A DNA stretch of 64,000 nucleotides, from assembly GCA_013286045.1 (NCBI GenBank), contig JABDGM010000006.1:1-64000 (forward strand), read 5' to 3'. This DNA is from Planctomycetota bacterium (GTDB taxonomy: Bacteria; Planctomycetota; Planctomycetia; Pirellulales; Lacipirellulaceae). How positions within the stretch are numbered: position 1 is the first letter of the stretch; the number at the start of each line of letters is the position of its first letter. Position numbers and translations under genes: made by a program. The notes below the pieces were generated by a model. The model saw only the letters and a list, made by a program, of their open reading frames with translations, did no database searches and was not told where the DNA came from. Positions 5,965 to 33,562 of this stretch are shown one piece after another.

Positions 5965-7155
5965 TTATGCAAACGCCGCAGAGGCTTTGGAGTCGGCCGC
6001 AGGAGCCGCAGTCGGCAAATCGTGCCATTCGAACGCTGGCAACGAGTTCGAAGACCCTTCCGCAATTCTGAAAGTGGCCGCGCGGGCACGCGTGGCGGCG
6101 GGGCCATCGATTCGCCACATATGGGCAGGATCGCGATGTAACCGCAAGTGATCGCGTTCGCGCCACCAGGCTGCCGTTTGACGCGGAAGGGTGTGCCACA
6201 TCCCTTCCGTTTCTCGGGCCTTTTCCAGAAGGTCGCGATAGGCGTCCATCCGCGGACCTTGGTCGAGATAATCGGGATGGGTGATTAGGAGCGCCATTCC
6301 GCCCAGCTTAACGACGTGGTCGAGCTTGGCGTTCCATATGTTGCCATCGCGCTCCCCCAGCGCGATGAACAACGTGTGGTCCTGTGGGAGCGTGTACGGC
6401 ATCTCAACAAAACGGCCGACGATAAATGGCCATACGCTGCCGACGCCGCCCGGCATCGCCTGGTAGGGGTCAATGTCGAAACAAGATGCGTCATATTCAA
6501 TATCGAGCGCCTGCATCCATTTCAGGTTGCGATGCACCATCGGGGCGCGAAAACCAACAGCGTTAAATTCTTCCAAAGCGGTATTTATGGCCGGCACGCG
6601 ATTGTTGAACAAAGCGCGGCTGGTGAAAAGTTTCCCGTCGTGATTGTAACCATGCACACCGATTTCAAATCCACGGGCCTGAAGGTCTCGCAGCAGCCCG
6701 CGGTCAACGGCGTACTTGTGCGGGACGATGTTCCACGACGAACGAAATCCCAAATCCTCTTCAAGATTGGCTAGCCGTTCGATGCGCCGCATCCCCTCAG
6801 CGGTTTCAACATCGTGCGTGGGAACGAACGCGAAGCGAGCCCCATCCGGCCAGGGATGAATTGTTGGGAAACCAGCCTCACCAGCCGCCATGTACGTGGC
6901 GGCCAGAGATCTCTCGAAGTGGCGCGGAATATACCAATCTGTTGTTCGCTCCACTTGGCGATAGCGTTGCAATAGTTGTCGCACGGGCAACGGGATCAAC
7001 GATCGCAGACGATAATACGCGCGAAATGCCGACGACAATCGCGACGCAGCGACATCGTCAGCGAGCGCGGCTCGCAGAACTTGTTCCGCCGGCGTGCCAT
7101 CGAAGAGAAATCGACAGGCGAGATCAAGTCTGCGGATGGTAGATTCGTCGCTCAT
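5965..7155 (-). CDS. Polysaccharide deacetylase-like protein
   Basis: The 396-residue product has a NodB-like deacetylase core from about residue 105. The catalytic strand is 'FVPTHDVE' (D115, in place of the usual TFDD), and 'IGVHGYNHDG' gives the metal-binding H168 and H172. The first about 100 residues are helical and of unknown role. No signal peptide is seen, so action in the cytoplasm or at the inner face of the membrane is possible. It is the last gene of the minus-strand exopolysaccharide operon, 34 nt after the JmjC-like gene. The family removes N- or O-acetyl groups from polysaccharides. Related enzymes occur in PEP-CTERM/EPS loci, which fits the FemAB-like genes nearby. Its substrate is probably the polymer of this cluster, but that is inferred from position. 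Confidence 0.82.
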   Translation of the reverse strand: MSDESTIRRLDLACRFLFDGTPAEQVLRAALADDVAASRLSSAFRAYYRLRSLIPLPVRQLLQRYRQVERTTDWYIPRHFERSLAATYMAAGEAGFPTIHPWPDGARFAFVPTHDVETAEGMRRIERLANLEEDLGFRSSWNIVPHKYAVDRGLLRDLQARGFEIGVHGYNHDGKLFTSRALFNNRVPAINTALEEFNAVGFRAPMVHRNLKWMQALDIEYDASCFDIDPYQAMPGGVGSVWPFIVGRFVEMPYTLPQDHTLFIALGERDGNIWNAKLDHVVKLGGMALLITHPDYLDQGPRMDAYRDLLEKARETEGMWHTLPRQTAAWWRERDHLRLHRDPAHMWRIDGPAATRARAATFRIAEGSSNSLPAFEWHDLPTAAPAADSKASAAFA

Positions 7156-7189
7156 GTGCGTTCATTCCACGTTGCCATATAACCGCCGA

Positions 7190-8068
7190 TCAGTTAGCTA
7201 CGGCACGCCGCATGCGCTTACCGTTGTGTTCGATATGACAAGTGCATGGAACCCGATAGAGGCCGACGTCGTGGAAGACTTGCTTGACGCGTTCCGATAG
7301 CAGGTCGACGACTATACCTTTCGCGTCATAGCTGATGTTGCTAACGCTAATCGATTTGTCGAGCGAGCGGACATGATGCCACCAACCGCGCGGAATGAAC
7401 AACATTTCGCCCGGCTCGATAACGACGCGATACTCGGTCGCTTTGGCGAACAAGGGGAATCGGTCGGCGTCGAAGTTGTCGACATCCATTTCGCTCGACA
7501 TCGTTCCTTGATCGAACCGCTTCGAAGCGTACATATACTTCGAATCCTCGGGCGCAACCAATCGCACCTCTTTGCGGCCGCAAATTTGAGCGAGGACGTT
7601 GTCGCCCCAGTCCACGTGGTACCCGGTCACGGTACCCGCAGGGCCGATCCAGCCCTTGGCCGTGTTTTTAATTTTGAATTGCGAAAGCAGAGAAAAGTCG
7701 ACATCTTTTCTTAGCTCGGGAAATGCGTCGAAAACGCGGAATACGGAGAGGTAACCTTTTGGCGCACTTTGCCCGGGGCCACTGTCGGCGATGCGGCGAA
7801 TGTAGTCGCCGTACTCCATGACTTCATACTGGCCGCCGCCTTGCAGGACGTTGTTCATTTCCAGAAACACTTGCTTCGGCAATTGTAGTCCGGCAAAGAA
7901 CTCAAACGACCATTTTTTCATCGCCGCCCAATTTGCGGTGACGTTGCGCATCAACAGCGCGCGATTTTTGTCGATGTATTCGCGCTTGAACTCTTTCGAA
8001 GAAATCATATCGACAACGTCGATTTGTGCTTCTGTAGCAATCGTTGGGCTTGATTCGGTAGCTTGCAT
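7190..8068 (-). CDS. Cupin-like / JmjC-type Fe(II)- and 2-oxoglutarate-dependent dioxygenase
   Basis: The 292-residue protein has the layout of cupin_8/JmjC (FIH-like) hydroxylases. The iron-binding HxD is in 'GYHVDWGDN' (H151, D153). The distal histidine is in 'PGEMLFIPRGWWHHV' (H231 or H232). The family couples 2-oxoglutarate decarboxylation to hydroxylation of a protein, peptide or small molecule. It sits 47 nt downstream of a FemAB-like transferase and 34 nt upstream of the deacetylase, so it is transcribed with the polysaccharide genes. That is an unusual place for a JmjC protein. It may modify an amino-acid substituent added to the polymer, or a partner protein, but this is inference. 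No signal peptide is present, so a cytoplasmic location is expected. Confidence 0.82.
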   Translation of the reverse strand: MQATESSPTIATEAQIDVVDMISSKEFKREYIDKNRALLMRNVTANWAAMKKWSFEFFAGLQLPKQVFLEMNNVLQGGGQYEVMEYGDYIRRIADSGPGQSAPKGYLSVFRVFDAFPELRKDVDFSLLSQFKIKNTAKGWIGPAGTVTGYHVDWGDNVLAQICGRKEVRLVAPEDSKYMYASKRFDQGTMSSEMDVDNFDADRFPLFAKATEYRVVIEPGEMLFIPRGWWHHVRSLDKSISVSNISYDAKGIVVDLLSERVKQVFHDVGLYRVPCTCHIEHNGKRMRRAVAN

Positions 8069-8115
8069 TGGAGGTCCTCGTCGCTTGTGCGTATGCAGTG
8101 TGTTATAGATAGTTG

Positions 8116-9222
8116 TTATCGGTTTGTTTTGTACTGAGCGGGCGTTCGGCTAATCGCTATTCGTTGCTTTGGTGAAATTACAGACCGCCCCAATTCGTAG
8201 GCGCGCTCGGCAATCGCCATTTTCCAACGGGAATATATTTTGCGATATCTTCCGTAACAGACGAGCTCACCGCCGAAACTGGCTTTGAAGTCGCGGACTC
8301 CATAGGGCACATCAGGCCAACCCGCGCCCCCGAAATCGTAGCATTCGATGCCGTTCTCGCAGCTCCATGCGATTTCGCGCCACTGCATGAATGCGGCGGG
8401 TGAGAGACCCGTCAAACGCTTCGACCCGCCGTACCACGCAAACGCCTTCTTGTTGAAAAGCAACAGTGTGTCGGCGGCGACCGGCTCGTCGCCGTTGTAG
8501 GCAACGACGAACGTGATCATTTTCTTGGGTTTGAGGATTTTGTATGCCGCTTCAAACAGGCTTTTGTCGGCGAGAGGCACTCCAGCGCGGCCGTAAGTCG
8601 CGCGGAGAAACTCATAGAGAATGTCCACGCATTCTGGATTCTCCAAGTGGCGAAGTTCAAAACCGCGTTTCTCGCATTTCCGAACATAGGACTTGGCGGA
8701 GTCATGCACGCGACTCCAGATCGATTTGATCGGCTCTGTGGTGTCAATGAGATAGTTGAGATAGTCGAGGTGCCGATAGCCGCTTCGCTCTAACGCCACG
8801 CGTTCGGGGCCGCTGGCACATAGCGGTCGGACCTCGGCAAATAAAGCGCGCCGTTTTAGGTATTGATCGTGAGTGGCAATCAACTCGCACAGGGAGTCGA
8901 CGCCATCCGGCGAATCAACGCACAGCGGCTCGGCGTAGGATACGGAACGCGACGACACGGCGCCGAAAACGTTGGGAAGCGTCTGCACCCGCGTCGCGAC
9001 CAGCATCGAGAGAATCTCGCCGGTATCGCTGACCGCTGCCAAGGGAATGACGCTATGGCCTTTCGCCGCCGCGAAGACTTGAATCATCGCAGAGGTATGG
9101 AAAACGCTTCCTTTGGGATGCCGCGCAACGAACTCATCCCAAGCAGGTTGGAACTCTTCCCAACCGCTCACCAGATTGATTGCTTTCCATCGAGTTGAGC
9201 TTGCAGTAAGCAAAGCAGTCAC
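8116..9222 (-). CDS. FemAB-like GNAT-fold transferase (PEP-CTERM/EPS-associated type), copy 1
   Basis: The 368-residue protein has the double-GNAT layout of FemAB/FemX-like peptidyltransferases. Its C-terminal signature is 'CYDFGGAGWPDVPYGVRDFK' followed by 'FGGELVCYGRYRKIY'. FemAB enzymes transfer an amino acid from aminoacyl-tRNA to a cell-wall precursor. The subgroup found beside exosortase/EPS loci has an unknown acceptor. The next gene upstream in the operon (9295-10386) is a clear paralogue with the same domain order and the same 'YAEPLC' and 'GGAGWP(D)' motifs, so this is a tandem duplication. It is soluble, with no signal peptide. Its position between glycosyltransferases and the dioxygenase suggests it decorates the polysaccharide or its lipid-linked precursor. 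Confidence 0.82.
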   Translation of the reverse strand: MTALLTASSTRWKAINLVSGWEEFQPAWDEFVARHPKGSVFHTSAMIQVFAAAKGHSVIPLAAVSDTGEILSMLVATRVQTLPNVFGAVSSRSVSYAEPLCVDSPDGVDSLCELIATHDQYLKRRALFAEVRPLCASGPERVALERSGYRHLDYLNYLIDTTEPIKSIWSRVHDSAKSYVRKCEKRGFELRHLENPECVDILYEFLRATYGRAGVPLADKSLFEAAYKILKPKKMITFVVAYNGDEPVAADTLLLFNKKAFAWYGGSKRLTGLSPAAFMQWREIAWSCENGIECYDFGGAGWPDVPYGVRDFKASFGGELVCYGRYRKIYSRWKMAIAERAYELGRSVISPKQRIAISRTPAQYKTNR

Positions 9223-9294
9223 GTCTATCTCCCAATGCCGAGCGCTGGCTCTGCGCTCGGTGTCGTTCGATCCGTTTTTTAAACAGGCCCCTGT

Positions 9295-10386
9295 TTATTT
9301 AGATGAAAATACCGTGCGTTTAAAGTTGTAGACCTTCTCGGCCAACGCCAGGCGCCAAGGCGAAAACACCTTACGATAACGACCAAATTGCACGAGCTCC
9401 CCGCCGAACTTGCGCTTGAAGTCCCGAACGCCGTACGGAATATCCGGCCAGCCGGCACCGCCTGAATCGCACACTTCGTATCCTTGCTCATGCGCCCATT
9501 TCAATTCTTGCCAGCGGAGCAAACTGCAGGGCGACCCTTCGCACGAGCGCGACACGCCGCCATACCACAAGTAGACTTGCCGCTTGTAGGTCAGCAGCAC
9601 ATCCATCGCAACGGGTTGTTCCCCTTCGTACACGGCGAAAAACTTGACCATGTTGCGCGGGCCGCCCATACGCACAGTTTCATCGAACAAACTGCGGTCG
9701 ACGAGCGGAACCCCGGAATGTCCGTAGCTCAGCTTGAGTAAGGGGTAAAGCTGGTTGACCGCGGTTTCGGCCGGCACTTCGCGGACGACGAGCCCGCGCT
9801 TTTCGCACTGCCGAATCGCGTATTGAGCCCCTTTATGCAGATTCGACCACATCGTTCCGATGGGCAGCGTCACGTCGTTGAGATAATTCAGATAATCCAG
9901 ATAGGTGTAGCCGGCTCGCTCGAGTACGATTCGCTCACTGCCGGGCGCAAATAATGGGCGCACCTCGGCAAACAACACGGAACGAACCATTTCTTCGTCG
10001 TGTCGGGCGACCAGCTGAGATAGTGCCTTCATGCTATCCGGATGGTCGCTGCACAAAGGCTCGGCATAAAACACGGCGCGCGACGAGAGTCGGCCCATTG
10101 GAGCGGGAAGAGACTGCACACGAATACTGACGAGAATCGCCGTTACCGTTCCTTCTGAGTTCAACGAGGCCAGCGCGAGCGGACGTTGGCCACGAGTGTT
10201 TTGAAAGGTACGAACCATTTCTGAAGTGTGGAACGCGCTACCTTTGGGATGCTCGTCGACATAACGGTCCCAAAGTGGCTGAAGCCGCTCAAAGTCATCA
10301 CACAGATTTACGATTGTATGATTCTGACCCGGCGGCGAATAACCTGCCGTGCGTTCGGCCAGCGGTTTGTAGGATGTCGTCTGCAT
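9295..10386 (-). CDS. FemAB-like GNAT-fold transferase (PEP-CTERM/EPS-associated type), copy 2
   Basis: The 363-residue paralogue of the neighbouring gene has matching blocks along its whole length: 'HPKGSAFHTSEMV' near residue 50, 'AVFYAEPLC' near 110, 'RPLFAPGSERIVLERAGY' near 155, and the C-terminal 'CDSGGAGWPDIPYGVRDFK'. One visible difference is CDSGGAG in place of YDFGGAG at the conserved strand. Two copies could add two different residues in sequence, as FemA and FemB do in staphylococci, but that comparison is only an analogy. It lies 72 nt upstream of copy 1 in the transcript and 78 nt after the GT4 gene. No membrane segment or signal peptide is seen. Confidence 0.82.
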   Translation of the reverse strand: MQTTSYKPLAERTAGYSPPGQNHTIVNLCDDFERLQPLWDRYVDEHPKGSAFHTSEMVRTFQNTRGQRPLALASLNSEGTVTAILVSIRVQSLPAPMGRLSSRAVFYAEPLCSDHPDSMKALSQLVARHDEEMVRSVLFAEVRPLFAPGSERIVLERAGYTYLDYLNYLNDVTLPIGTMWSNLHKGAQYAIRQCEKRGLVVREVPAETAVNQLYPLLKLSYGHSGVPLVDRSLFDETVRMGGPRNMVKFFAVYEGEQPVAMDVLLTYKRQVYLWYGGVSRSCEGSPCSLLRWQELKWAHEQGYEVCDSGGAGWPDIPYGVRDFKRKFGGELVQFGRYRKVFSPWRLALAEKVYNFKRTVFSSK

Positions 10387-10464
10387 ATCAGAAGTGGTCA
10401 GTCAAAAAGTTACCAGTTACAAACGCCTGATATAGTTGGCTTCTGGAGGTATTAGAATTCGCGA

Positions 10465-11745
10465 TCAATTGTTGGTGGCAACGAATTCACAATGTTCGGG
10501 CTGCTTATTTGGATACGCATGACCGCGAGGCTCCAAACTACGATACGCCGCCAACAAATGCTCTTCTTGATGTTCCCAGGTAAGTGATTGCACGACACGC
10601 TCGCGCCCGGCGCGTCCTAAACTTTGCCGAAGGGTCGGGTCATCCATCAGGCGTAACAATTGTCGCGCGAAATCGTGTTCGTCGTTCGCACGCGCGTACA
10701 AGGCGGTGTCTGCTGCGGTCACGCGGTGCTCGGGCAAATCGAACGCCACAACAGGTTTTGCTTGGGCCATGTATTCCATGACCTTGACGATTGTCGAATG
10801 ATCGTTGTATTCGTTCGACGGATCGGGTACTACGCATATATCCGTGGCGGCGATGTACCGTGGGACCTGCTCGTAGTCGACCCAACCGGTGAATAAGACT
10901 TGCCCGGCGATATCGAGTCCCGCGGCCAATTGCTGAAGCTCTTCCATAGCCGGGCCTTTTCCGATGAGGACGCAGCGCCAATCGCTACGATTGTTTTCGG
11001 TTCGCAATATGGCCAATGAACGCAACAAATAATCTATGCCATCCTGCCGGCCCATCATTCCGACGTAACCGAAAACGATGGCTGCTCCCGCCCTCAAGGA
11101 ATCGTCCGGCTCGAATTGATGCAAATGCCAAGGCTCCGGGCCATTTCGAACTACGGTGATGCGATCTGCCGGAATTCCGCTACGCTGAATCTGCTGTTGC
11201 TTGTACGAGTCATTCACAGCGATCACGTGGTTTGCACATCGACACGACATGCGTTCAAAGAACTCCAAGATCCCAAGCAGCATGCGGTTCGGCGGATGGG
11301 TGAAACGAGTCTGGTACATATCTGGAGCCAAGTCATGCTGATCGTAGACAAACTTCTTTCCGAACAGCCGCCAAAAGCCGCCGATGAGGACGAGAAAATC
11401 GGGCGGGTTGTGCGCGTGGATGACATCGAAACCGCGTCGTAGCGCGATCCACAGCGTCAGCGCAAACATAGTCGAGAGCGCGTAGGCGTATTCCACGAAA
11501 TAGCCGATGAGCCCGTTCGCCATGGGCGGTGGTGGGAACTGGTAACCGGCCACGCCGCCGAATTGTTCGAACCAGCGCTCGCCATCTGCCGCTGGACCAA
11601 TCACGGTAACGTCGAACCCAGCGGCGGCCAATGAATTGGCTTCGCAGCGGACGCGACCGTCTTCCGAGTAGGCCGCGTTTTCCAGTAGCATTAGTACCCG
11701 CGTCGGACGCTTAGCATGCGTGTTGGAGGGGTTTGTTGCCCTCAT
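10465..11745 (-). CDS. Glycosyltransferase family 4 (GT-B fold)
   Basis: I use the ATG at 11745, which forms an ATGA overlap with the stop of the upstream glycosyltransferase. The ORF track's longer start would add 21 unlikely Arg-rich residues. The resulting 426-residue protein has a GT-B fold. The N-terminal domain opens with 'RVLMLLENAAYSEDGRV'. The C-terminal donor domain contains 'VFGYVGMMGRQDGIDYLL', 'VLIGKGPAMEEL' and the donor-site helix 'STIVKVMEYMAQAKPVVAFD'. It should transfer a nucleotide-activated sugar to the growing lipid-linked glycan at the cytoplasmic membrane face. Donor and linkage cannot be read from the sequence. Translational coupling with its neighbour suggests the two GT4 enzymes work on the same repeat unit. 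Confidence 0.86.
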   Translation of the reverse strand: MRATNPSNTHAKRPTRVLMLLENAAYSEDGRVRCEANSLAAAGFDVTVIGPAADGERWFEQFGGVAGYQFPPPPMANGLIGYFVEYAYALSTMFALTLWIALRRGFDVIHAHNPPDFLVLIGGFWRLFGKKFVYDQHDLAPDMYQTRFTHPPNRMLLGILEFFERMSCRCANHVIAVNDSYKQQQIQRSGIPADRITVVRNGPEPWHLHQFEPDDSLRAGAAIVFGYVGMMGRQDGIDYLLRSLAILRTENNRSDWRCVLIGKGPAMEELQQLAAGLDIAGQVLFTGWVDYEQVPRYIAATDICVVPDPSNEYNDHSTIVKVMEYMAQAKPVVAFDLPEHRVTAADTALYARANDEHDFARQLLRLMDDPTLRQSLGRAGRERVVQSLTWEHQEEHLLAAYRSLEPRGHAYPNKQPEHCEFVATNN

Positions 11746-12971
11746 ACGGCGTGCTCCAGCTGCGAGTGCGATTCTTCGCGCGGGGCTTCTGTGTCCCCGT
11801 CGTCGCACTCCAAAGTTTTTGGTGAGCTTTTGAGTTTCGGCTCAATCATACTCGCCAAGAGTTCGGCGGTGTGGCCAACGTTGCGGAGCGAGAAATGCTC
11901 CTCCGCCAGCTCGCGATTCCTCTGGCCGAGTTCGCGCCTCAACGATGGCGACTGGTAAACTCGCTCCAACGCCTCGGCCAATCCGTGAACGTCGTTTTCA
12001 TCGACGAGGATTTGCTCAACGATCCGCGGTATTTCAACGTGGCGCGTGGTTACGACTGGCTTGCCGCAGGCCATGGCTTCAATAATTACATTGGGAAACC
12101 CTTCGGAGTCTCCATTCCGGTCCACGCGACTGGGTAAGCAGAACACATCGCACGCATGATAAACGGCCTTCAGCGCAATTCCGCTCAGCTTTCCGAAGAA
12201 CGCGACCTGCGACTGCATACCCATCTTTTTGACCATCGCCTCAACGTCCACAACGCTGGATGAACCTCCCGTTCCGCCGACGACCCACACTTCGACATCC
12301 TCACGCCCCATTTCCTTAACCGCCTGCAGCAGAATCTCGTGTCCTTTCTTTTCCACGAAGAAGGCGACGATCAACACGACAAATTTTGTGGCTGGTTGGT
12401 AGTCGCAAAGATCGATCGAATAGCGGACGACGTCGATGCGCGATTCGGACACTCCGAACCTATCAGTCAGCACGGAGCGATTGTGTTCGGTGGCCGCGAT
12501 GATTCGATCGCACGCACCGAGCGCTACCGGGAAGAGTTTTGAGTTTGGGTTTTGATAAAGTTCGTATGCGTGTATTTCGACGGCCAAGGGGATGTTCAAA
12601 AGCTGCTTGCAGAAGTAGCCGACGAACAGTTTGCGGTCGCCAAACGTGGCGTAAATCGCGTCAATATCCTTCATCGCTGAGGCAAAATAAGCAGCTAACA
12701 GGAAGTCGCCGACCGCGCCATATCGAATCGCTTGAATCAGTACGACGAGATAGCGAATCGGCATCGAAATCAAACGCAGCGGCTGGCTTGCCAGTACCTT
12801 CCACCATTGCCAGCGCTGGCAGTCCCACTCAGGTCGCGGATCGTAGAGGCCACGCCGATGCTTGGTCGGAAATAGGCGAACTGCGATCCCTCGATTCGCC
12901 AATTCATCTATCTCACGATAGATGAACTGCTCGAGTCCGCTTTTCATGGATGCTATGACGGCAAGACGCAT
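11742..12971 (-). CDS. Glycosyltransferase family 4 (GT-B fold)
   Basis: The 409-residue GT-B enzyme starts 'MRLAVIASMKSGLEQFIYRE', the N-terminal acceptor-domain strand and helix of the family. The C-terminal part has 'FVEKKGHEILLQAVKEM', 'VWVVGGTGGSSSVVD' and the EX7E motif in 'DSEGFPNVIIEAMACGKPVV', which binds the donor sugar nucleotide. The 3' end overlaps the next GT4 gene by ATGA. It starts 13 nt after the stop of the GT2 gene, so the three glycosyltransferases form one run. Expected role: addition of one sugar of the exopolysaccharide repeat unit on the cytoplasmic side. The gap between the ATPase-like sugar-nucleotide genes upstream and this run holds the flippase and polymerase. Confidence 0.87.
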   Translation of the reverse strand: MRLAVIASMKSGLEQFIYREIDELANRGIAVRLFPTKHRRGLYDPRPEWDCQRWQWWKVLASQPLRLISMPIRYLVVLIQAIRYGAVGDFLLAAYFASAMKDIDAIYATFGDRKLFVGYFCKQLLNIPLAVEIHAYELYQNPNSKLFPVALGACDRIIAATEHNRSVLTDRFGVSESRIDVVRYSIDLCDYQPATKFVVLIVAFFVEKKGHEILLQAVKEMGREDVEVWVVGGTGGSSSVVDVEAMVKKMGMQSQVAFFGKLSGIALKAVYHACDVFCLPSRVDRNGDSEGFPNVIIEAMACGKPVVTTRHVEIPRIVEQILVDENDVHGLAEALERVYQSPSLRRELGQRNRELAEEHFSLRNVGHTAELLASMIEPKLKSSPKTLECDDGDTEAPREESHSQLEHAV

Positions 12972-12984
12972 CGGGGCCAGTTAC

Positions 12985-13983
12985 CTATTTCACGATGACC
13001 GCGTCGGTCGGGTACGCTTCGACCGGCAGTGGCCGTGCTGTGACAAAAGACAAAAACGTGCAGTAGGTCACCATGGTTCGCTTCAATAAACTGATGCCTA
13101 CTTGCCTAAGATTGCGGACTTTGAAGGCTACGCAGACCACGGCAAGTAAAACGGTGCCCGCGAGCAGCCAAACGGTGTGCGTAAGGATGGCAGTCGCGAC
13201 TGCACCGAGCGCGGCCGCGATGAACGCCACGAATACGTAAACAAACGACATTTGCTCGATGGAGAAGCGAAGCCCGCATCCATTCTTCAAACAATACCGC
13301 AGCGTCGTGCCGTAATCGTAAAGCTTGCTGCGCGACCGCCGCATGATTTCGCCGACGGTCTCTCGCGGAGAGGAATAGGTCACACACATCGGTTCGTAAA
13401 TGCGCGCCAGCGAATACCCTGCGTCTTGAATTCGCAATGCGAGCTCGCACTCTTCGCCGGTTGTTAGAAACGGATTGAACGTGCCGGCTTTTTCCATGGC
13501 TTCCCGACGGTACATGGCGATCCCGCTTAACGACACGGCCGCCCGAACCGATTCTGTCGACGTTTGCGAAAAGTAGTTCTTTGCAACCGCGATACAATTG
13601 CCTTTGCGCGACAAATAAGCCTGGTGCATGATTCCAGCGACGCCGCCGCAAGCCGGATTATTATCCAAAAATTCGCAGGCTTTATTCATCCAGCGCTTAA
13701 ACAGCAGCGAGTCGCCATCAACGAACAACAGATACTTGCCGCGAGCGTGTTGATAGCCGATATACCGGCCCGCCGAAGGAGATAGCTTCCACGACTTCCG
13801 TAACTGCAGGATGCGAATTGGGAAGCGGCTGGCGATGGCGACGGTGTCATCTTCGGACGCAGAATCGACGTAAATCACTTCGCACTCTTCGTGCGACGGC
13901 AACGAAGCGAACACCGAGCGCAGGCACCTTTCAATCCGCTGCGCTTCATTGCGGCCAATCACGATGATGGAAATAATACACAT
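12985..13983 (-). CDS. Glycosyltransferase family 2 with C-terminal membrane segments
   Basis: I chose the ATG at 13983, which begins 'MCIISIIVIGRNEAQRIERC', the standard first strand of the GT-A fold. The longer ORF upstream adds 61 residues with no family resemblance and would overlap the flippase gene. The 332-residue product has the metal/nucleotide motif in 'LLFVDGDSLLF' and 'GEECELALRIQDAGYSL', the usual ED-like acceptor/catalytic region. Two hydrophobic helices around residues 245-290 anchor it in the membrane. It lies 53 nt after the flippase gene and 13 nt before the first GT4 gene. It probably adds a sugar to the lipid-linked repeat unit. The donor is not predictable. Confidence 0.86.
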   Translation of the reverse strand: MCIISIIVIGRNEAQRIERCLRSVFASLPSHEECEVIYVDSASEDDTVAIASRFPIRILQLRKSWKLSPSAGRYIGYQHARGKYLLFVDGDSLLFKRWMNKACEFLDNNPACGGVAGIMHQAYLSRKGNCIAVAKNYFSQTSTESVRAAVSLSGIAMYRREAMEKAGTFNPFLTTGEECELALRIQDAGYSLARIYEPMCVTYSSPRETVGEIMRRSRSKLYDYGTTLRYCLKNGCGLRFSIEQMSFVYVFVAFIAAALGAVATAILTHTVWLLAGTVLLAVVCVAFKVRNLRQVGISLLKRTMVTYCTFLSFVTARPLPVEAYPTDAVIVK

Positions 13984-14036: not shown

Positions 14037-15560
14037 TTAACTCTGTCCAACACTGGCCTCTTGGAGGGGAAATAAAAACCGTTCGCGCAATCCGTTTGCG
14101 CCCCGGCATCTCCAGAACATTAATCCCACCAACACGGCCGCGTAGAGCAATACTGCGACAATGCATGCGACAATAAAATTCACCTCGCCAGAAACGCTCT
14201 CCGTGGCGGCCATCGCGCCACAGGCAGCGATAATGTACAGCACGAGGGAACTACGCCACGGCGAAGTGTGGCCGGGCTCCATCGCGAACACATGGCGAAT
14301 TGCCCAAAAGTGCAGCAACGTATTCAGCACATTGACGACTACAACGGACACGGCCGCGCCGGTTAACCCATAGCCATAGATCAGCGGCACCCCAATCACG
14401 ATGTTTAATGCTACATCGATCGCGACAATTTGGAGCGTGACATGCTCGCGATGCTTTGAGTACACAACCTGGCCGAACGTGCCTGCGATCGCCTGCAACA
14501 AAAGCGCCGGCAAGATGATGCGGAGCACGGGGGCGGCGTTGGAGAAATCTTTGTGCGCATATAAAAATGAGATAACCTGCTCCGCGTTGAAATACAACAA
14601 GATCGAGCTCGGGGCGGCAATCAACAACACAACTTCAATCATCATTACGGTGAACTGTTGAAGTCTTTCGTTATTCTCGTCTGCGCGTCGGCACATCATG
14701 GGGAACATGCTGTTGATGATCGCAAGCAGCACGAGTCGCACGGGCATTAACAACTGCCAGGCCGCTCCGAACAAACCGACTGCCACCTCGCTGGAGTACC
14801 AAGACAATAAAACGGTGCTCGTGCAGGCCAACACAGCGCCAAGGCTGTCAATTCCCAGGAATTTCCACGTCCGTCGGAGCAAGCTGGCGCATTCGGTCCA
14901 GGTAAAACAGATATCGCGAAGCGGCACTTCTCGAAGCAGGATCACAGCCTCGCAGATCATGGCCGCCATTTGACACGCCAAGAGAACATAAGCGATATCG
15001 ATCACCGTCCCACCGCGGCGTAAGACATAATACGAAACGCCGACTCGGCAAATGTTGATCGGAATTGCCACGGACGCAAGCAAATGTATCTGCTCGCGAG
15101 CGCGGAAAATGGCCTCGATGTTTGTCGCTAAAGACCAAGGGAGTATGCCTAACCCCAAGATTAAGATCACTTCCGCCGTATCACGCGGGTATTGTGAAAC
15201 GAGCACCAGCAGGATCAGTATCACGAAATTAACGAGGAAGGCTCCGAAGACGATGACGCCCGCATTCGCGCAGTAGGAGCCCGCAAGTTTTGGAAGCTTG
15301 GCGACATCGCGGGTGATTAACGTTGGCAAGCCCGCGCTGGCGAACACTTGAAACGTGTAGAGCAGTGTCAGGCCCAATGACAATTGTCCGAACGCGCCTG
15401 GGCCGCAATAGCGCCCGACAAGTGCATAGACAACGAATGTCGCCGCCTTGTTGAGGACGTCGGTGGTCAGCAACGACATTGTGTTGAGAACCACGCGCCA
15501 CACAAGCGTTACCGCGCCCGGCTGTTCGGGCAAAGGCCAAGTTTGTTCACTTTCCGTCAT
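14037..15560 (-). CDS. Polysaccharide flippase (MOP/MVF superfamily, Wzx-like)
   Basis: The ATG at 15560 overlaps the upstream methyltransferase stop as ATGA, so I prefer it over the ORF track's start 15 codons earlier. The 507-residue protein is hydrophobic throughout, with about 12-14 membrane helices. It begins its first helix region with 'LLTTDVLNKAATFVVYALVG' and has the 'GRYCGPGAFGQLSLGLTLLY' motif typical of Wzx and related oligosaccharide flippases. It should move undecaprenyl-linked repeat units from the cytoplasmic to the outer face of the inner membrane. The polymerase/ligase-like gene two positions upstream in the operon supports a Wzx/Wzy-type assembly route. Confidence 0.86.
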   Translation of the reverse strand: MTESEQTWPLPEQPGAVTLVWRVVLNTMSLLTTDVLNKAATFVVYALVGRYCGPGAFGQLSLGLTLLYTFQVFASAGLPTLITRDVAKLPKLAGSYCANAGVIVFGAFLVNFVILILLVLVSQYPRDTAEVILILGLGILPWSLATNIEAIFRAREQIHLLASVAIPINICRVGVSYYVLRRGGTVIDIAYVLLACQMAAMICEAVILLREVPLRDICFTWTECASLLRRTWKFLGIDSLGAVLACTSTVLLSWYSSEVAVGLFGAAWQLLMPVRLVLLAIINSMFPMMCRRADENNERLQQFTVMMIEVVLLIAAPSSILLYFNAEQVISFLYAHKDFSNAAPVLRIILPALLLQAIAGTFGQVVYSKHREHVTLQIVAIDVALNIVIGVPLIYGYGLTGAAVSVVVVNVLNTLLHFWAIRHVFAMEPGHTSPWRSSLVLYIIAACGAMAATESVSGEVNFIVACIVAVLLYAAVLVGLMFWRCRGANGLRERFLFPLQEASVGQS

Positions 15561-16318
15561 GGTTTGCGACACAAATACACGGCTTCCTTGGGGTCCAATC
15601 CACACTGCGTGGCGATTGTCGCTCCCATTTCCTCAGCAAATGGATGCGTTTCTACGACAAATCCGGCGTCCGCGAGGCGAGTGGCGTAATCCGGACCGTA
15701 GCGGCGAACGTGGTCGAATTGTCCGAACAGACGCTCCCGCTCCTTAGGGTCCGTAACCGACGGGTCTTCGTAGGTTACGTCGGCCGTGATCGGCACGTGA
15801 AGAATTGCCCACCGCCCCGGCTTCAACACTCGCAAGAATTCACGCATCGCCTTCCGATCATCGGGCACGTGCTCGAGAACGTGACTGCAGTAAATCACGT
15901 CAAATGTATTAGCCGGATATTGGATTTCGGTGATATCCATCTTCTCCATGGCACTGACATCGGACAGATCGGCCGATAGGTAGTCGATATAGTCGCCACT
16001 TTGAAATAAAGCGCGCATGCTCAATTCGGGCGCGATATGCAGCAGCTTCTTCCGCCGTCCGTCGAGCAGATCCGTCTTCTGGTTGATAAACAGATGCATC
16101 AACCGATCTCGCTCAACGCTTCCGCACACGCCGCACATTGCCTCGGGGCGGACAACAATCTCGCCGTAAGGCTTGAATCGCCGCAGGTAGCTCTTACAGC
16201 ACGGACAATACCTCGCGTCTCCGCGTTCGATCATTCGCAGTACCGGGTGCAGCGATCGGCGAGTTCTCGAAAGAACCATCTTTGCAGTTGAACGAACTTT
16301 TTTTGTCGTAATCATCAT
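15557..16318 (-). CDS. SAM-dependent methyltransferase with N-terminal zinc ribbon
   Basis: The 253-residue protein (ATG at 16318; a GTG at 16333 would overlap the upstream stop) starts with a cysteine cluster. 'YCPCCKSYL' is followed about 25 residues later by 'MCGVCGSVERDRL', a CX2C...CX2C zinc-binding ribbon. A class I methyltransferase domain follows: 'LLHIAPELSMRALF' as motif I, 'YLSADLSD' as the acidic strand, and 'FDVIYCSHVLEHVPDDRKAM' then 'LRVLKPGRWAILHVPI', typical of the methyltransferase type-11 group. It lies between the polymerase-like and flippase genes and is coupled to the latter by ATGA. It may methylate a sugar of the repeat unit or cap chain ends, as WbdD-like enzymes do, but the substrate is unknown. 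Confidence 0.84.
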   Translation of the reverse strand: MMITTKKVRSTAKMVLSRTRRSLHPVLRMIERGDARYCPCCKSYLRRFKPYGEIVVRPEAMCGVCGSVERDRLMHLFINQKTDLLDGRRKKLLHIAPELSMRALFQSGDYIDYLSADLSDVSAMEKMDITEIQYPANTFDVIYCSHVLEHVPDDRKAMREFLRVLKPGRWAILHVPITADVTYEDPSVTDPKERERLFGQFDHVRRYGPDYATRLADAGFVVETHPFAEEMGATIATQCGLDPKEAVYLCRKP

Positions 16319-16325
16319 TCGTCCG

Positions 16326-17774
16326 CTAACCACGCGCGGTCAAAGAGTGTGAGCGATGAAGGGAATTTGGCTGCCGTGGGCCGAACGCATGGGGTGCTAC
16401 ATGCCGAGCGAACATGGCGGGCTTCCTGTATCTGGCATTGGCGGTAACGGCGCCGCCGTAGAACACGACCACGGAGATGGTGAGAACCGCCACAAATGAT
16501 TCGAACCCGTCTCGCGCGAAACTCCCGTCGAGAAATCCATGAACCAAAGCGAATATCAGGAGCGCCGATGCGAAATGGAACGCCTGATCGCCGCTTACTC
16601 GAAACGCGCGCGAAGCCGATACGATCGCAACAAGAACAACAGATAAACCTAGCACCAGACCGACAACACCCACGCCTAACAATATTTCGAGGTACGCGGA
16701 GTGAGAGTGCATAAACGTCCAATCGAACATCGAGGAGAATTGCTCGACTCGACGCGCAGTCCAGAACCCCCCGTATCCGTAGCCAAAGAGAGGCCGCTCG
16801 GCGACAGCGCCCAACACGGCCCCCCAAATCGGAATCCGTCCTGTGAGTGTCGTGATATCAGCCGTTTCCTGCTCGCGCCCCATTTTGACGGCGCTCAGGA
16901 AGCCATCTTGAGAATCCGACATGAACCACAGCACGCCAACAACTGCTGCCAATTGCAACAGCACGCCGCAATACAGAACCTTCTTGTTGAGCGACGCACC
17001 CTGAAACATGAATACCGCGAGGGCCACGCCGAACGCCACCGTAGCGCTTCGGGAACGTGTTAAGAGTAAAAAGACGATTCCGACCGCTGCCAAAGCGAGC
17101 CACAAGAGGCTCGCCTGGTAGTTACGATTCTGTCGCGAATCCAAATAGAGTGCCAACGACGCTAGCGAAAGAAGCGCGCAATTGACACCCGTTGTGTTCG
17201 GGTGCTGCGTGCCGGCAAATCGATGTATGTTGCTGATCGAAAACGAGCCCTGAGCAATCTCGGCACCAAGCCCGAGCAATAGAAAACCGGCCGTCGTGAC
17301 TGCGACGAACATCAATAGCTCCGGCCCACGCCAGTGCTTGGCGATTCCCAGAGTTGCGAGCAGCATCAGCAGCGGCACGAGCGATCGCTTGAACGATTGG
17401 AAGCTGTCCTCTGCCCAAACACAGCTCGCCAACATCAACGCACACATCAGCAAGCAGCCGACGAGCAGCGCAGTGTTCGTTTGCAACTTTTCGGGACGCC
17501 ATCTAATCAACAGCGCTACGCCTAACCCGCTAATGGCTAAGAAGCTGAGCTCTCGCAGCAAGCTGCTACTTCCGGCTTCCGAGACCAGATCGGACACCTG
17601 GTCGTAGTCGACCGACTCGCCAGCGGCGTACAACAGGTTGTGCTGCGTCACATATGCCAACGCGATGATGATAGTCGGGATCCAGAACATCAACCCGCGC
17701 ACTCGCCCTTCGGTCCATACGACAGGCTCGCTGGATAGTTGGGTTCCAAAGGTTGAGTGGTAGGAAGCGTCCAT
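16326..17774 (-). CDS. O-antigen ligase/polymerase-like membrane protein (Wzy/WaaL family)
   Basis: The start is set at the ATG at 17774 (MDASYHSTFG...). The upstream 54 codons of the long ORF overlap the aminotransferase gene and show no membrane character. The 482-residue protein has about 11 membrane helices. Its large loop contains 'RPLFGYGYGGFWTARRVEQF' and 'FMHSHSAYLEILLGVGVVG', the histidine-containing Wzy_C region of O-antigen ligases and polymerases. The cytoplasmic-side motif 'LLLTRSRSATVAFGVALAV' is also typical. In this cluster it most likely polymerises flipped repeat units in the periplasm. Ligation to another acceptor cannot be excluded, because the two activities are not separable from sequence. 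It lies 11 nt from the upstream aminotransferase gene. Confidence 0.84.
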   Translation of the reverse strand: MDASYHSTFGTQLSSEPVVWTEGRVRGLMFWIPTIIIALAYVTQHNLLYAAGESVDYDQVSDLVSEAGSSSLLRELSFLAISGLGVALLIRWRPEKLQTNTALLVGCLLMCALMLASCVWAEDSFQSFKRSLVPLLMLLATLGIAKHWRGPELLMFVAVTTAGFLLLGLGAEIAQGSFSISNIHRFAGTQHPNTTGVNCALLSLASLALYLDSRQNRNYQASLLWLALAAVGIVFLLLTRSRSATVAFGVALAVFMFQGASLNKKVLYCGVLLQLAAVVGVLWFMSDSQDGFLSAVKMGREQETADITTLTGRIPIWGAVLGAVAERPLFGYGYGGFWTARRVEQFSSMFDWTFMHSHSAYLEILLGVGVVGLVLGLSVVLVAIVSASRAFRVSGDQAFHFASALLIFALVHGFLDGSFARDGFESFVAVLTISVVVFYGGAVTANARYRKPAMFARHVAPHAFGPRQPNSLHRSHSLTARG

Positions 17775-17785
17775 CGCGACGTGGA

Positions 17786-18904
17786 TTATCCGGCAATTGC
17801 AACGGGCGAACTCTGATCGATTACGTTTGCAACTTGGTCGATCGAAGCATCGCTTAAGCCTGGGTACATCGGCAACGACAGGATGCGGCCCGCGAGGCGC
17901 GTGGCGACGGGAGCCCCATCCGGCACGGTTCGGCACGATTGGAACGGCGCAATCTCATGAATCGGCGTTGGATAATGAATGCCGCATTGCACCCCTTCGG
18001 CCTGCAATCGAGCCGCAAGTTCGTCTCTTTTCGGATGCTGCACCACGTACAAATGGTACACATGTGTCACTCCGGGACGCTCATATGGCAAAACTAGATC
18101 TGCTTGGTCCGAAAGTACTTCCCTGTAGTGCTCGGCCGCGGCGCGCCGCTGCTCGTTTCCTTCGGCCAGATAACGAAGCTTCACGGAAAGAATTGCTGCC
18201 TGAAGCGTGTCGAGCCGGCTGTTGAAGCCCAGCATCTCGTACTTATTCTTCGCGCGCTGACCGTAATTGCGAAGCATTCGAATTCGTTCTGCGAGCGTGT
18301 CGCAATTGGTGACGACCATTCCGCCGTCGCCATAAGCGCCTAAGTTTTTGCTTGGGTAAAAACTGTAGCAAGCCGCTGTGCCGAAGGACGCGATCGGCCT
18401 ATCGCCAATCATTGCGCCGTGAGCCTGACAGGCATCTTGCACCACGGGCAAATCGTACTTGGCGGCGATCTCAAGAATCGACACCATATCCGCGGGTTGG
18501 CCGTACAGGTGGACTGGGACGATCGCCTTAGTCTTCGGCGTAATGGCCTGCTCGATTAGGTCGACATTGATCAGATAGTCTGACGGGCCGCAATCGACCA
18601 ATACGGGCTTCGCGCCGCAATACGCGATCGCGAGCGCCGTGGCCACAAACGTGTTGGCGGCCGTAATCACTTCATCGCCGGGACCGATACCGAGACCGCG
18701 CAGTGCCAAATGGAGCGCCTCGGTGCCGTTTCCCATGCCGACGCCGTGCCTGCCGCCGCAAAAACCGGCGAACGCCTGCTCGAACGCAGCGACTTGGTCG
18801 CCCAAAATGTATTGACCGTCGTCGATCGCTTGCTGGACGGCAGAGGAGATCTCCTGACGAACTTCGGGCGAATTTGCTTTCAAATCAACAAAGGGGATTG
18901 TCAT
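17786..18904 (-). CDS. DegT/DnrJ/EryC1/StrS aminotransferase (WbpE-like)
   Basis: The ATG at 18904, coupled by ATGA to the acetyltransferase stop, gives a 372-residue protein starting 'MTIPFVDLKANSPEVRQEI', the normal start for this family. The longer ORF adds 37 unrelated residues. It is a PLP fold-type I sugar aminotransferase. The Schiff-base lysine is K186 in 'YSFYPSKNLGAYGDGG', and the cofactor-phosphate loop is 'GNGTEALHLAL'. 'QDACQAHGA' supplies the PLP-ring aspartate. Together with the adjacent dehydrogenase and acetyltransferase it matches WbpB-WbpD-WbpE, which converts UDP-GlcNAcA to UDP-2,3-diacetamido-2,3-dideoxyglucuronic acid. This enzyme would carry out the 3-amination. The role is inferred from family and order; the specificity is not proven. 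Confidence 0.88.
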   Translation of the reverse strand: MTIPFVDLKANSPEVRQEISSAVQQAIDDGQYILGDQVAAFEQAFAGFCGGRHGVGMGNGTEALHLALRGLGIGPGDEVITAANTFVATALAIAYCGAKPVLVDCGPSDYLINVDLIEQAITPKTKAIVPVHLYGQPADMVSILEIAAKYDLPVVQDACQAHGAMIGDRPIASFGTAACYSFYPSKNLGAYGDGGMVVTNCDTLAERIRMLRNYGQRAKNKYEMLGFNSRLDTLQAAILSVKLRYLAEGNEQRRAAAEHYREVLSDQADLVLPYERPGVTHVYHLYVVQHPKRDELAARLQAEGVQCGIHYPTPIHEIAPFQSCRTVPDGAPVATRLAGRILSLPMYPGLSDASIDQVANVIDQSSPVAIAG

Positions 18905-19506
18905 AAGGTGATTGCTTCCAGTTCCGATTGATGGCATCGCATCTGCGGTGTTTCTCCGCAGGCGTCGCACGTCGCCGCGCGATAGTCTCCAAATAGTTTT
19001 TGTCCACAGCGGCACACGTGGCCGACAATTCGAGCCGGGGCGCCGACCATGAGTGCGAACGGCGGCACGTCGGCCGTAATGATCGCGCCCGCGGCAATCA
19101 TGCTGTAACGGCCGAGTCGCAAACCCGGCACGACCGTGACGTTGGCACCGATCGATACACCGCGCTCCACCACGGTTAAGGCGAGCCAGCTGTCGGTCGT
19201 CGCGTAACGGCCGGCCGCTTCGCGCATGCGGGGCGACCGCGGATAGCGGTCGTTGGTGAATGTCGCATTCGGTCCGACGAACACGTCATCTTCAAGTGTG
19301 ATACCCGCCCATACGCATACGTTGTTTTTCAGCGTCACGTTATTGCCGACGATCGCGCCAGACTCGACGAACGCATGATCGCCGACATTGCAATTGCTCC
19401 CTACGCGCGCGCCGCGCATGACGTGAGCATACGCCCACACGCGTGTGCCTGTGCCGACTGCGTCTGACTCTACCAGGGCGGCAGGATGAAAGTAGCTGTC
19501 TGCCAT
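18901..19506 (-). CDS. Left-handed beta-helix acetyltransferase (WbpD-like) with C-terminal zinc ribbon
   Basis: The 201-residue protein is built of hexapeptide repeats from about residue 10 to 150 ('AIVGNNVTLKNNVCVWAGI', 'GVSIGANVTVVPGLRLGRYS'), the fold of N-acetyltransferases such as WbpD/WlbB. The segment 'FTNDRYPRSPRM' matches the loop these enzymes use for substrate. Unusually, the C-terminus carries 'HVCRCGQKLF' and 'TCDACGETP', a CXC...CX2C set that looks like a zinc ribbon. It should acetylate the 3-amino group of the UDP-diamino-uronic acid made by the neighbouring aminotransferase. It starts 1 nt after the oxidoreductase stop (TGAGATG) and overlaps the aminotransferase start by ATGA, so the three are tightly coupled. 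Confidence 0.87.
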   Translation of the reverse strand: MADSYFHPAALVESDAVGTGTRVWAYAHVMRGARVGSNCNVGDHAFVESGAIVGNNVTLKNNVCVWAGITLEDDVFVGPNATFTNDRYPRSPRMREAAGRYATTDSWLALTVVERGVSIGANVTVVPGLRLGRYSMIAAGAIITADVPPFALMVGAPARIVGHVCRCGQKLFGDYRAATCDACGETPQMRCHQSELEAITL

Positions 19507-19507
19507 C

Positions 19508-20599
19508 TCAGTTCCCGGCTCCCGCCACGATTAGTGGTTCACGCTCCACTCCGTTGATGTCAGCGGTGCTGGGGCGGCGCGGCATGATTCGGTGAATCGG
19601 CACGTGGCCGCCACTATCGCGAAGCGATTTGTCCGCCGCTTCGATCACTTCGACGACTCGCAGCCCATTCCAGCCATCCGTCTTTGGCTTCTTTCCATGG
19701 GCCACTGCGTCGATGAAGCTGCGAATTTCTGCTTTGAGCGGCTCGCCTTCATTGATGCGCGGACTGTAAATATCGCCGTAGCGGTAGCTGTATAAGAACT
19801 CGCCAAACGAGCTAGCGTCCGTCGCGGCGTGAACACCGGTGTCATAAATACGGATTTTTTCGATCGGCTCGATATCGTCGTATACCGCCATCTTCTTACT
19901 GCCGACGACGGTCATCACTCTCCGCTTGCGAGGATCCAGCCAGCTGACGTGAACAATACCGATCCGGTTATCCGGAAATTGCATCGTCATGTTGCAGACG
20001 TCGTGAATACGCCGATCGAGGTAGGCGAGACCCGAGCAGCACACGCTGATAGGCGAACGGCCCATCAGGTCGAGAATGATCGACGTGTCGTGCGGCGCAA
20101 GATCCCACAACGCGTTGACGTCGTGCCGCACGGGCCCGAGGTTGAGACGCGTCGAGCTGATGTAGTAAATCTCTCCGAGCTCGCCGCTCGAAACGACTTC
20201 TTTGAGCTTGGCAACAGCTGCCGAATACAGGAATACGTGGCCAACAAACAAGACACGATCGTTCGCCTCGGCGCACGCGATCAGGTCTGCGCATTCTTCG
20301 CTTCGCGTGCAGAGCGGCTTTTCGACAAACGTATGCAGCCCAGCTTCCAGAGCGCGTTTGGCAAGCCGATAGTGTGTCTTCGTTGGCGTTGCAATAACAA
20401 CGGCGTCGATTCGGTCGCGCCTTAATACTTCGGCATCATCTGTCGTTCCAATAACCTGCGGGAAGCGCTCACAGATTTGCTTCAGCTTTTTCTCGTCGCG
20501 GTCGCAAATGCAGACGACTTCGCACTCGGCGGACTCTTGAAAGCAACGAATTAAGTTTGGGCCCCAATATCCAGCCCCGATAATACCGACACGAATCAT
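19508..20599 (-). CDS. Gfo/Idh/MocA oxidoreductase (WbpB-like)
   Basis: The 363-residue NAD(P)-binding protein starts 'MIRVGIIGAGYWGPNLIRCF', a Rossmann GXGXXG loop. It has the family's 'FVEKPLCT' (EKP) motif near residue 95 and the C-terminal alpha/beta substrate domain. Its position directly before WbpD-like and WbpE-like genes points to oxidation of C3 of UDP-GlcNAcA to the 3-keto intermediate. The UDP-GlcNAc 6-dehydrogenase (WbpA) that should supply the uronic acid is not in the window. It lies 94 nt after the priming sugar transferase gene, and its stop is separated from the next start by a single base. The pathway assignment is an inference from gene order plus family. Confidence 0.86.
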   Translation of the reverse strand: MIRVGIIGAGYWGPNLIRCFQESAECEVVCICDRDEKKLKQICERFPQVIGTTDDAEVLRRDRIDAVVIATPTKTHYRLAKRALEAGLHTFVEKPLCTRSEECADLIACAEANDRVLFVGHVFLYSAAVAKLKEVVSSGELGEIYYISSTRLNLGPVRHDVNALWDLAPHDTSIILDLMGRSPISVCCSGLAYLDRRIHDVCNMTMQFPDNRIGIVHVSWLDPRKRRVMTVVGSKKMAVYDDIEPIEKIRIYDTGVHAATDASSFGEFLYSYRYGDIYSPRINEGEPLKAEIRSFIDAVAHGKKPKTDGWNGLRVVEVIEAADKSLRDSGGHVPIHRIMPRRPSTADINGVEREPLIVAGAGN

Positions 20600-20693: not shown

Positions 20694-21479
20694 TCAATCC
20701 CACGCGAGTGCCGGAATCGTCAAAAGTATGATCCGCACATCGAGCCAGAAACTGCGGCGTCGAACGTATGCCGCGTCCAGGCACATCATTTCGGTGAATG
20801 TTGTTTGATTTTTGCCGCATACTTGCCAGAGCCCGGTAATCCCTGGCAGCACGTCAAATCGCCGGCGATGCCAGCCATCATATTGGCCGTAGGGAACTAC
20901 ATCCGGCCGGGGACCAACCAGACTCATTTCGCCGATTAATACGTTGATCAGCTGTGGCAATTCGTCGACTCCGAAGTTGCGGAACAACGCTCCGCCCGGA
21001 ATGACTTCGAGCTCGTGGTCGCGCTTTTGAAGCGGCCGATTGCTCGCCATTAAATCTGCAACGTGCGATTGATGTTGGTCCAACCCATCGTTCACTTCGA
21101 TCGTGCGGAACTTCCACACTCTGAAAGGCTTGCCATCGAGTCCGTAACGCAATTGCCGAAATAGAACGGGGCCCCGCGATACACATTTGATATAGACAGC
21201 GACCGCACACAGAAAAGGCGCGAGCACTAACAGCCCGGCGATTGAGCCAACAATGTCGATCGAGCGCTTCCACATGGGGCACGGCGACCCGGCACTGACA
21301 TTGCGCGAAGCACTTGCGTGACCTACATGTCCGTTTGCCTGTATCTCCCGCGAGCGTTCTTGCTCTTGAATATTGTCGTCCGACGACAGTGCGGCACTTA
21401 GCAGCACGTCATCCGCATTGGACGGCTTGGATTTCCAGGATTGCACTAAGGTAGCGCTATCCGTTGCAACTTGCGACAT
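20694..21479 (-). CDS. Priming sugar-phosphate transferase (undecaprenyl-phosphate, bacterial sugar transferase family)
   Basis: The 261-residue monotopic phosphoglycosyltransferase has a polar N-terminal 80 residues and a re-entrant membrane helix, 'VGSIAGLLVLAPFLCAVAV'. The catalytic core follows with 'VLFRQLRYGLDGKPFRVWKF', 'FGVDELPQLINVLIGEMS' holding the Asp-Glu dyad, and 'GPRPDVVPYGQYD'. It ends with the family's 'PGITGLWQVCGKN' block. It transfers a sugar 1-phosphate to undecaprenyl phosphate at the inner face of the membrane and so starts each repeat unit. It lacks the N-terminal four-helix domain of WbaP/WcaJ, so it is the short form with an added variable leader. It sits 73 nt after the chain-length gene in the operon. 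Confidence 0.88.
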   Translation of the reverse strand: MSQVATDSATLVQSWKSKPSNADDVLLSAALSSDDNIQEQERSREIQANGHVGHASASRNVSAGSPCPMWKRSIDIVGSIAGLLVLAPFLCAVAVYIKCVSRGPVLFRQLRYGLDGKPFRVWKFRTIEVNDGLDQHQSHVADLMASNRPLQKRDHELEVIPGGALFRNFGVDELPQLINVLIGEMSLVGPRPDVVPYGQYDGWHRRRFDVLPGITGLWQVCGKNQTTFTEMMCLDAAYVRRRSFWLDVRIILLTIPALAWD

Positions 21480-23805: not shown

Positions 23806-24295
23806 GGAAGTGGAGAGTCCGGCGATGACGAAACAAAACGCTCTCGCGACTCCATCCGACTTGAGCAATCCGCGCCGGACCGATCCAAGTTCAGGCGGCG
23901 CTTAATTGCGCAGGTGAACCCAGAAAACCGACCAGGCGGTCGCCACAACCCATATCCCTTAATCGTTAGTGTTGCGGCAACCGCTTTACTTTACTCAGAT
24001 ATCTTAAAATCGCCAACGTGCCGCAGTCCTATTTGCCCATTTACAGCGGCTCGATAACCGAAAAATGGCTTGGAATTTATGGAAATCGGGGGCCGAAATC
24101 AGCGCCTAAAACGATATGGGCGAAAGAGTTGTGGACCAACTATTATTCACCTACGCTAGCGAAAATGCGAAATGTGGTAGGAACTTCCTTATGTGATCGA
24201 GTCGAATACAGGGCGGGGGTATACGACAAAACGTCGTCAATGGCAGGGACCTACACTCGGTTTTACGTCAATTCGAACGCTTGCTAGCATTTGCA
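23806..24295. other. Intergenic region upstream of the exopolysaccharide operon
   Basis: About 490 nt between the chain-length gene and the Lhr helicase gene, noticeably richer in A and T than its surroundings. It must hold the promoter of the minus-strand polysaccharide operon. I find no convincing sigma-70 hexamer pair and no sigma-54 GG-N10-GC site at a sensible distance. A short perfect inverted repeat, GTTGCGGCAAC at 23971-23981, could be an operator half-site pair. A plus-strand ORF (24018-24287, 89 codons) has no recognisable features and is not called as a gene. Confidence 0.5.
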
Positions 24296-33534: not shown

Positions 33535-33562
33535 CGGAAGTCAATCGTTCCTCTTGACCCAC

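Follow-up and report, generated by a model that had tools for sequence, protein, structure and literature searches.

The 3' tail of an exopolysaccharide (EPS) operon from a planctomycete of the family Lacipirellulaceae may encode a cytoplasmic decoration module in which deacetylation and FemAB-type (amino)acylation precede Wzx and Wzy, a full explanation to which we assign a probability of about 0.37. The operon is located on the minus strand, from 23868 down to 5965 of the window (the whole 64,000-nucleotide stretch that was analysed), and is a complete Wzx/Wzy-type locus, with the phosphoglycosyl transferase (PGT), Wzx, Wzy, a Wzc-type co-polymerase (PCP) and glycosyltransferases together. 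All of the genes named in the original prediction are present at their positions on this strand. The tail has the order GT4a-GT4b-FemAB1-FemAB2-JmjC-deacetylase with all six frames open, and the features of the operon are as follows.

5965..7155, minus strand: NodB/DUF2334-like polysaccharide deacetylase, 396 aa; putative metal ligands D115, H168 and H172
7190..8068, minus strand: JmjC/Cupin_8 Fe(II)/2-oxoglutarate (2OG) oxygenase, JMJD5-like, 292 aa; H151, D153, H231, K166, Y106, T148, W140 and N157
8116..9222, minus strand: FemAB2, FemABX/Acetyltransf_6 acyltransferase, 368 aa
9295..10386, minus strand: FemAB1, paralogue of FemAB2, 363 aa; 46.9% identity to FemAB2
10465..11808, minus strand: GT4b glycosyltransferase (GT4); orthologue fused to the deacetylase in G141 and G201
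11742..12971, minus strand: GT4a glycosyltransferase (GT4); kept with the tail in G112 and G045
12985..13983, minus strand: GT2 glycosyltransferase, not conserved in the G112 locus; a longer ORF reaches 14166
14037..15605, minus strand: Wzx-type flippase
15557..16333, minus strand: class I SAM methyltransferase
16326..17936, minus strand: Wzy/O-antigen ligase-type polymerase
17786..19015, minus strand: DegT sugar aminotransferase, WbpE-like; WbpE among the PDB matches (1.4e-83)
18901..19506, minus strand: left-handed beta-helix sugar N-acetyltransferase, WbpD-like
19508..20599, minus strand: Gfo/Idh dehydrogenase, WbpB-like; top model UDP-GlcNAc 3-dehydrogenase, 196.6 bits, below its cut-off of 450
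20694..21479, minus strand: phosphoglycosyl transferase, the EPS initiating enzyme
21553..23868, minus strand: Wzc-like polysaccharide co-polymerase with a tyrosine-kinase domain

For the GT2 gene, a start at 13983 (MCIISII...) is likelier than the longer ORF to 14166. The likeness of the dehydrogenase to WbpB, of the acetyltransferase to WbpD and of the aminotransferase to WbpE makes a 2,3-diamino sugar a plausible, if unproven, precursor. Genes for a tRNA synthetase or for amino-acid biosynthesis are absent from the operon. Directly upstream of it, a very large Lhr-like helicase ORF (24296-28675, 1459 aa) occupies the window and was not seen in the examined stretch of a sister genome of the same genus (G112). 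Also near the operon (30253-35119) are genes for a 1093-aa DnaE-type polymerase and a 518-aa Y-family/ImuB-like protein, with a DnaE orthologue near the G112 EPS locus; from reading and synteny only, this pair is perhaps an SOS mutasome.

The two FemAB-like transferases, paralogues as predicted, are 46.9% identical, and the FemAB domain reaches its cut-off of 24 bits in both, with 47.6 bits for FemAB2 (8116-9222) and a marginal 24.8 bits for FemAB1 (9295-10386). Acetyltransf_6 scores 63 and 54 bits, respectively, so that both proteins carry FemAB/Acetyltransf_6 (GNAT) domains above curated cut-offs, as members of the FemABX family do. The top PDB match of FemAB2 is 9wqw, an aminoacyl-tRNA-dependent peptide synthase (5.7e-6). 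Both proteins retain a C-terminal FK motif, the lysine of which, by our own placement, probably corresponds to FemX K305. We rejected this lysine as proof of aminoacyl transfer, since related acyltransferases may retain it too and it may fail to separate the two kinds of transferase. Assignment to the XrtA FemAB family TIGR03019 was likewise rejected, the scores being 65 and 46.1 bits against an equivalog cut-off of 260.35.

The NodB-like nature of the deacetylase was borne out by its motifs, though its DUF2334 score of 22.9 bits lies below the Pfam cut-off of 26. TH-D115-VE, H168-GYN-H172, GF-R203 and T-H293-P are conserved in a 15-sequence alignment of homologues and provide the predicted metal-binding D-H-H residues (D115, H168 and H172) and the R/H motif residues (R203 and H293) of NodB-like (CE4) enzymes. 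A fused homologue scores 27.2 bits with Polysacc_deac_1 (cut-off 23.1), and the PDB match is the polysaccharide deacetylase 3rxz (1.1e-5). The XrtA deacetylase family TIGR03006 was rejected as an assignment (16.9 against an equivalog cut-off of 276).

The JmjC protein matches Cupin_8 with 141 bits (6e-41) and JmjC with 26.4 bits (cut-off 24). Human JMJD5 is its top solved relative by sequence (5e-36, ~30% identity) and the best fold match of its AlphaFold model in Foldseek (target TM 0.85; model mean pLDDT 64). This model was made from a nine-sequence alignment and has core blocks at 75-89; two sequences gave a pLDDT of 33. In the sequence alignment, every metal- and 2OG-binding residue of JMJD5 has a like residue in the JmjC protein, namely Y106, W140, T148 (for S318), H151, D153, N157, L159, K166, H231 and V233. 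The iron triad H151/D153/H231 and the 2OG lysine K166 expected of a JmjC/Cupin_8 2OG oxygenase are thus present, in agreement with the intact Fe(II)/2OG dioxygenase triad that had been proposed. The third ligand, previously left between residues 231 and 232, is assigned to H231 because the G112 protein has a tyrosine at position 232.

JMJD5 is an arginyl C-3 hydroxylase in which E238 and Y243 are the substrate-arginine residues (PMC5862942). The window protein shares with it the JmjC fold, the HxD...H triad, the 2OG-binding Y/T(S)/K/N/W residues and an equivalent of E238 (E70), but differs in its ~30% identity, its bacterial EPS operon setting and the residue aligned with Y243 in the pairwise alignment, which is L75; the complete arginine pocket of a JMJD5-type arginyl hydroxylase (E238 with Y243) is therefore not found. 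E70 could point to a basic substrate. This is only a hint, because E70 is not general among the aligned distant JmjC relatives and the alignment is loose in that region.

The tail was compared across the genus, the family and the order. G112 carries GT4a, GT4b, FemAB1, FemAB2, JmjC and the deacetylase in the identical order at 60-74% identity, and this shared order shows that the six-gene arrangement is not due to chance. The Wzx proteins of the two loci are just 27% identical, and the Wzy and GT2-position genes of G112 have no match to their window counterparts. The JmjC proteins are 72% identical (dN ~0.21; dS ~2.0, at which synonymous change is saturating), and the gene is under purifying selection. 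A third genome of the genus (G140) lacks JmjC, FemAB and deacetylase alike at the cut-offs used. Of the 44 genomes of the family, two carry a JmjC orthologue, and the other genomes searched had none, in line with the view that such a gene is unusual in an EPS operon. No close orthologue was found beyond the genus, a contig scan matching the sister genome only, and elsewhere in the order and phylum there are only distant relatives (26-36% identity) without recognised EPS tail genes as neighbours. The nearest of these in the order (L011:2369-5075, G185; 33%) has a DUF6065 protein and a sulfotransferase as its neighbours.

In a set of 297 genomes from the order, 10 have FemAB (E up to 1e-20) and 14 have the deacetylase; nine have both, for which the naive chance, relatedness ignored, is ~4e-13. 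Within the genus, and also in G114, G141, G201 and G249, FemAB and deacetylase genes lie close together, and more distant FemAB-type proteins adjoin a deacetylase in G028, G057 and G091. In G141 and G201, GT4b and the deacetylase form a single ORF directly after FemAB; these fusions lie at L044:8715-11150 (G141, 811 aa) and L046:8777-10993 (G201, 738 aa). G045, from another family (f18) that holds the closest outside FemAB pair, has GT4a-GT4b-FemAB1-FemAB2 on a contig that ends within FemAB2; neither JmjC nor a deacetylase was found in this genome, and no JmjC was found in three genomes of f18. JmjC is absent from every FemAB/deacetylase locus outside the genus with the full stretch assembled. 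Given this recurrence, adjacency and fusion across the order, FemAB, GT4b and the deacetylase are a conserved unit and JmjC is an accessory. The co-occurrence of four families expected in the original prediction thus held for FemAB with the deacetylase, and for JmjC with the FemAB pair in G112, but most FemAB/deacetylase loci are without JmjC. As its orthologues are known in two species of one genus only, the JmjC co-occurrence possibly represents a single event.

Twelve distant plasmid relatives of the JmjC protein (about 23-30% identity, from a plasmid collection that is a biased sample) were examined for their neighbours. Eight lie beside non-ribosomal peptide synthetase (NRPS) genes, two beside other amino-acid ligases, one of these also with a class I tRNA ligase, and two beside neither; none of the twelve is in a polysaccharide locus. 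That 10 of 12 adjoin NRPS or other amino-acid ligases is the strongest ground for favouring an amino acid as the JmjC substrate, by guilt by association at 23-30% identity. On a Rhizobium leguminosarum plasmid (L095), the JmjC-like cupin adjoins a serine-tRNA ligase and an NRPS, and on a Streptomyces hirsutus plasmid (L098) it adjoins class I tRNA ligase, ATP-grasp and GNAT genes; both neighbourhoods are possible aminoacyl-tRNA-linked pathways. Several IMG/VR viral contigs (L078-L086) encode near-identical JmjC/Cupin_8 proteins with ~30-33% identity to the window protein.

Several known systems resemble parts of this tail. In the Caulobacter holdfast, the amines that HfsH exposes have been proposed as acylation targets of HfsK, which is soluble, FemX-like and of double-GNAT type (PMC5362036); there too a polysaccharide deacetylase and a FemX-like protein modify an EPS, but the polymer is another one, JmjC is missing and a single FemX-like protein takes the place of the adjacent paralogues. 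In the Rubrivivax EPS locus, nodB, femA and a group 1 glycosyltransferase gene are neighbours (PMC3684757), as is the case in XrtA/PEP-CTERM loci (NCBIfam TIGR03006 and TIGR03019), where a deacetylase, a FemAB-related protein and a group 1 glycosyltransferase adjoin; these loci have no JmjC, and the window proteins fall far under both equivalog cut-offs. Orf11 of BD-12 biosynthesis, which shares the FemABX fold with the window FemABs, transfers an amino acid from Gly-tRNA onto an amino-sugar antibiotic (PMC12945691), a small-molecule acceptor rather than a polysaccharide. The bacterial Cupin_8 oxygenases of NRPS clusters belong to the family of the JmjC protein and have neighbours that imply amino-acid modification, but their identity is 24-30% and the ligation that they accompany is by NRPS, not by FemAB.

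The recurrence of FemAB, one GT4 and the deacetylase across the order, together with the GT4-deacetylase fusions next to FemAB, makes it likely that a lipid-linked repeat unit undergoes N-deacetylation coupled to N-acylation. GT4b would attach an N-acetylated amino sugar to this unit, after which the deacetylase would free an amine on it. The two FemAB-like double-GNAT enzymes would then acylate the freed amine or successive amines, with aminoacyl-tRNA as the most likely donor by homology, before Wzx flips the decorated unit and Wzy polymerises it. Apart from one borderline GT4, the six tail proteins have zero predicted membrane segments or signals; neither a TM segment nor a signal peptide is predicted for FemAB1, FemAB2, JmjC or the deacetylase, so that these enzymes most likely act before flipping. 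Predicted soluble proteins fit the mechanism because the use of tRNA and 2OG requires them. We infer what the substrate is, which donor supplies the aminoacyl group and how the steps follow one another. The coupling of deacetylation to FemAB acylation in the original prediction gains from recurrence, adjacency, fusions and precedents, but its JmjC step depends on two related genomes, and we regard as doubtful the proposal that amino acids added by FemAB from aminoacyl-tRNA to the EPS are then hydroxylated by the JMJD5-like oxygenase.

The FemABs could instead be acyl-CoA-type N-acyltransferases performing an HfsK-like re-acylation, with JmjC hydroxylating a sugar ring or an acyl group and no amino acid involved. 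Acetyltransf_6 outscores the FemAB model for both proteins, and the FemX-like HfsK, which works with the deacetylase HfsH, is termed an acyltransferase, its donor being unproven (PMC5362036). Since the closest solved relative of FemAB2 is aminoacyl-tRNA-dependent and all 12 plasmid JmjC relatives examined lie outside polysaccharide loci, we consider this arrangement rather unlikely.

The JmjC protein could also be a protein hydroxylase of the JMJD5, ycfD or FIH type that acts on a ribosomal protein or the EPS machinery and is merely co-transcribed. The solved structures nearest to it in sequence and in fold belong to protein or RNA hydroxylases, and E70 aligns with a substrate-arginine residue, but the replacement of the other by L75, the ligase neighbours of the plasmid relatives and the restriction of the gene to the EPS cassette of one genus, which is ill-suited to housekeeping, make this role unlikely. 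It is quite improbable that JmjC is a passenger, recently inserted into the operon of one genus and with no role in the polymer. Its absence from the fully assembled FemAB/deacetylase loci outside the genus would fit such an insertion, whereas the divergence between the two species (72% identity, with the dN and dS given above), the conserved partners on its flanks and its full active site speak against it.

In a full-text search of openly available papers, no listed paper brought JmjC and exopolysaccharides together, the ten best matches all lacking JmjC, so that the combination of JmjC with EPS decoration seems undescribed. The pairing of a deacetylase with FemAB/acyl transfer is of an already known kind, and JmjC is the unusual addition. 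If JmjC hydroxylates a polymer-borne amino acid, the operon would offer a route to hydroxylated aminoacyl groups in a biofilm polysaccharide; oxygen and 2-oxoglutarate would then be tied to matrix chemistry, with oxygen-dependent tuning of the biofilm polymer. Even without hydroxylation, the recurring FemAB/GT4/deacetylase core and its GT4-deacetylase fusions assign a particular glycosyltransferase and a particular deacetylase to a FemX-like protein, which makes the nature of the group transferred by HfsK-type FemX-like proteins directly testable.
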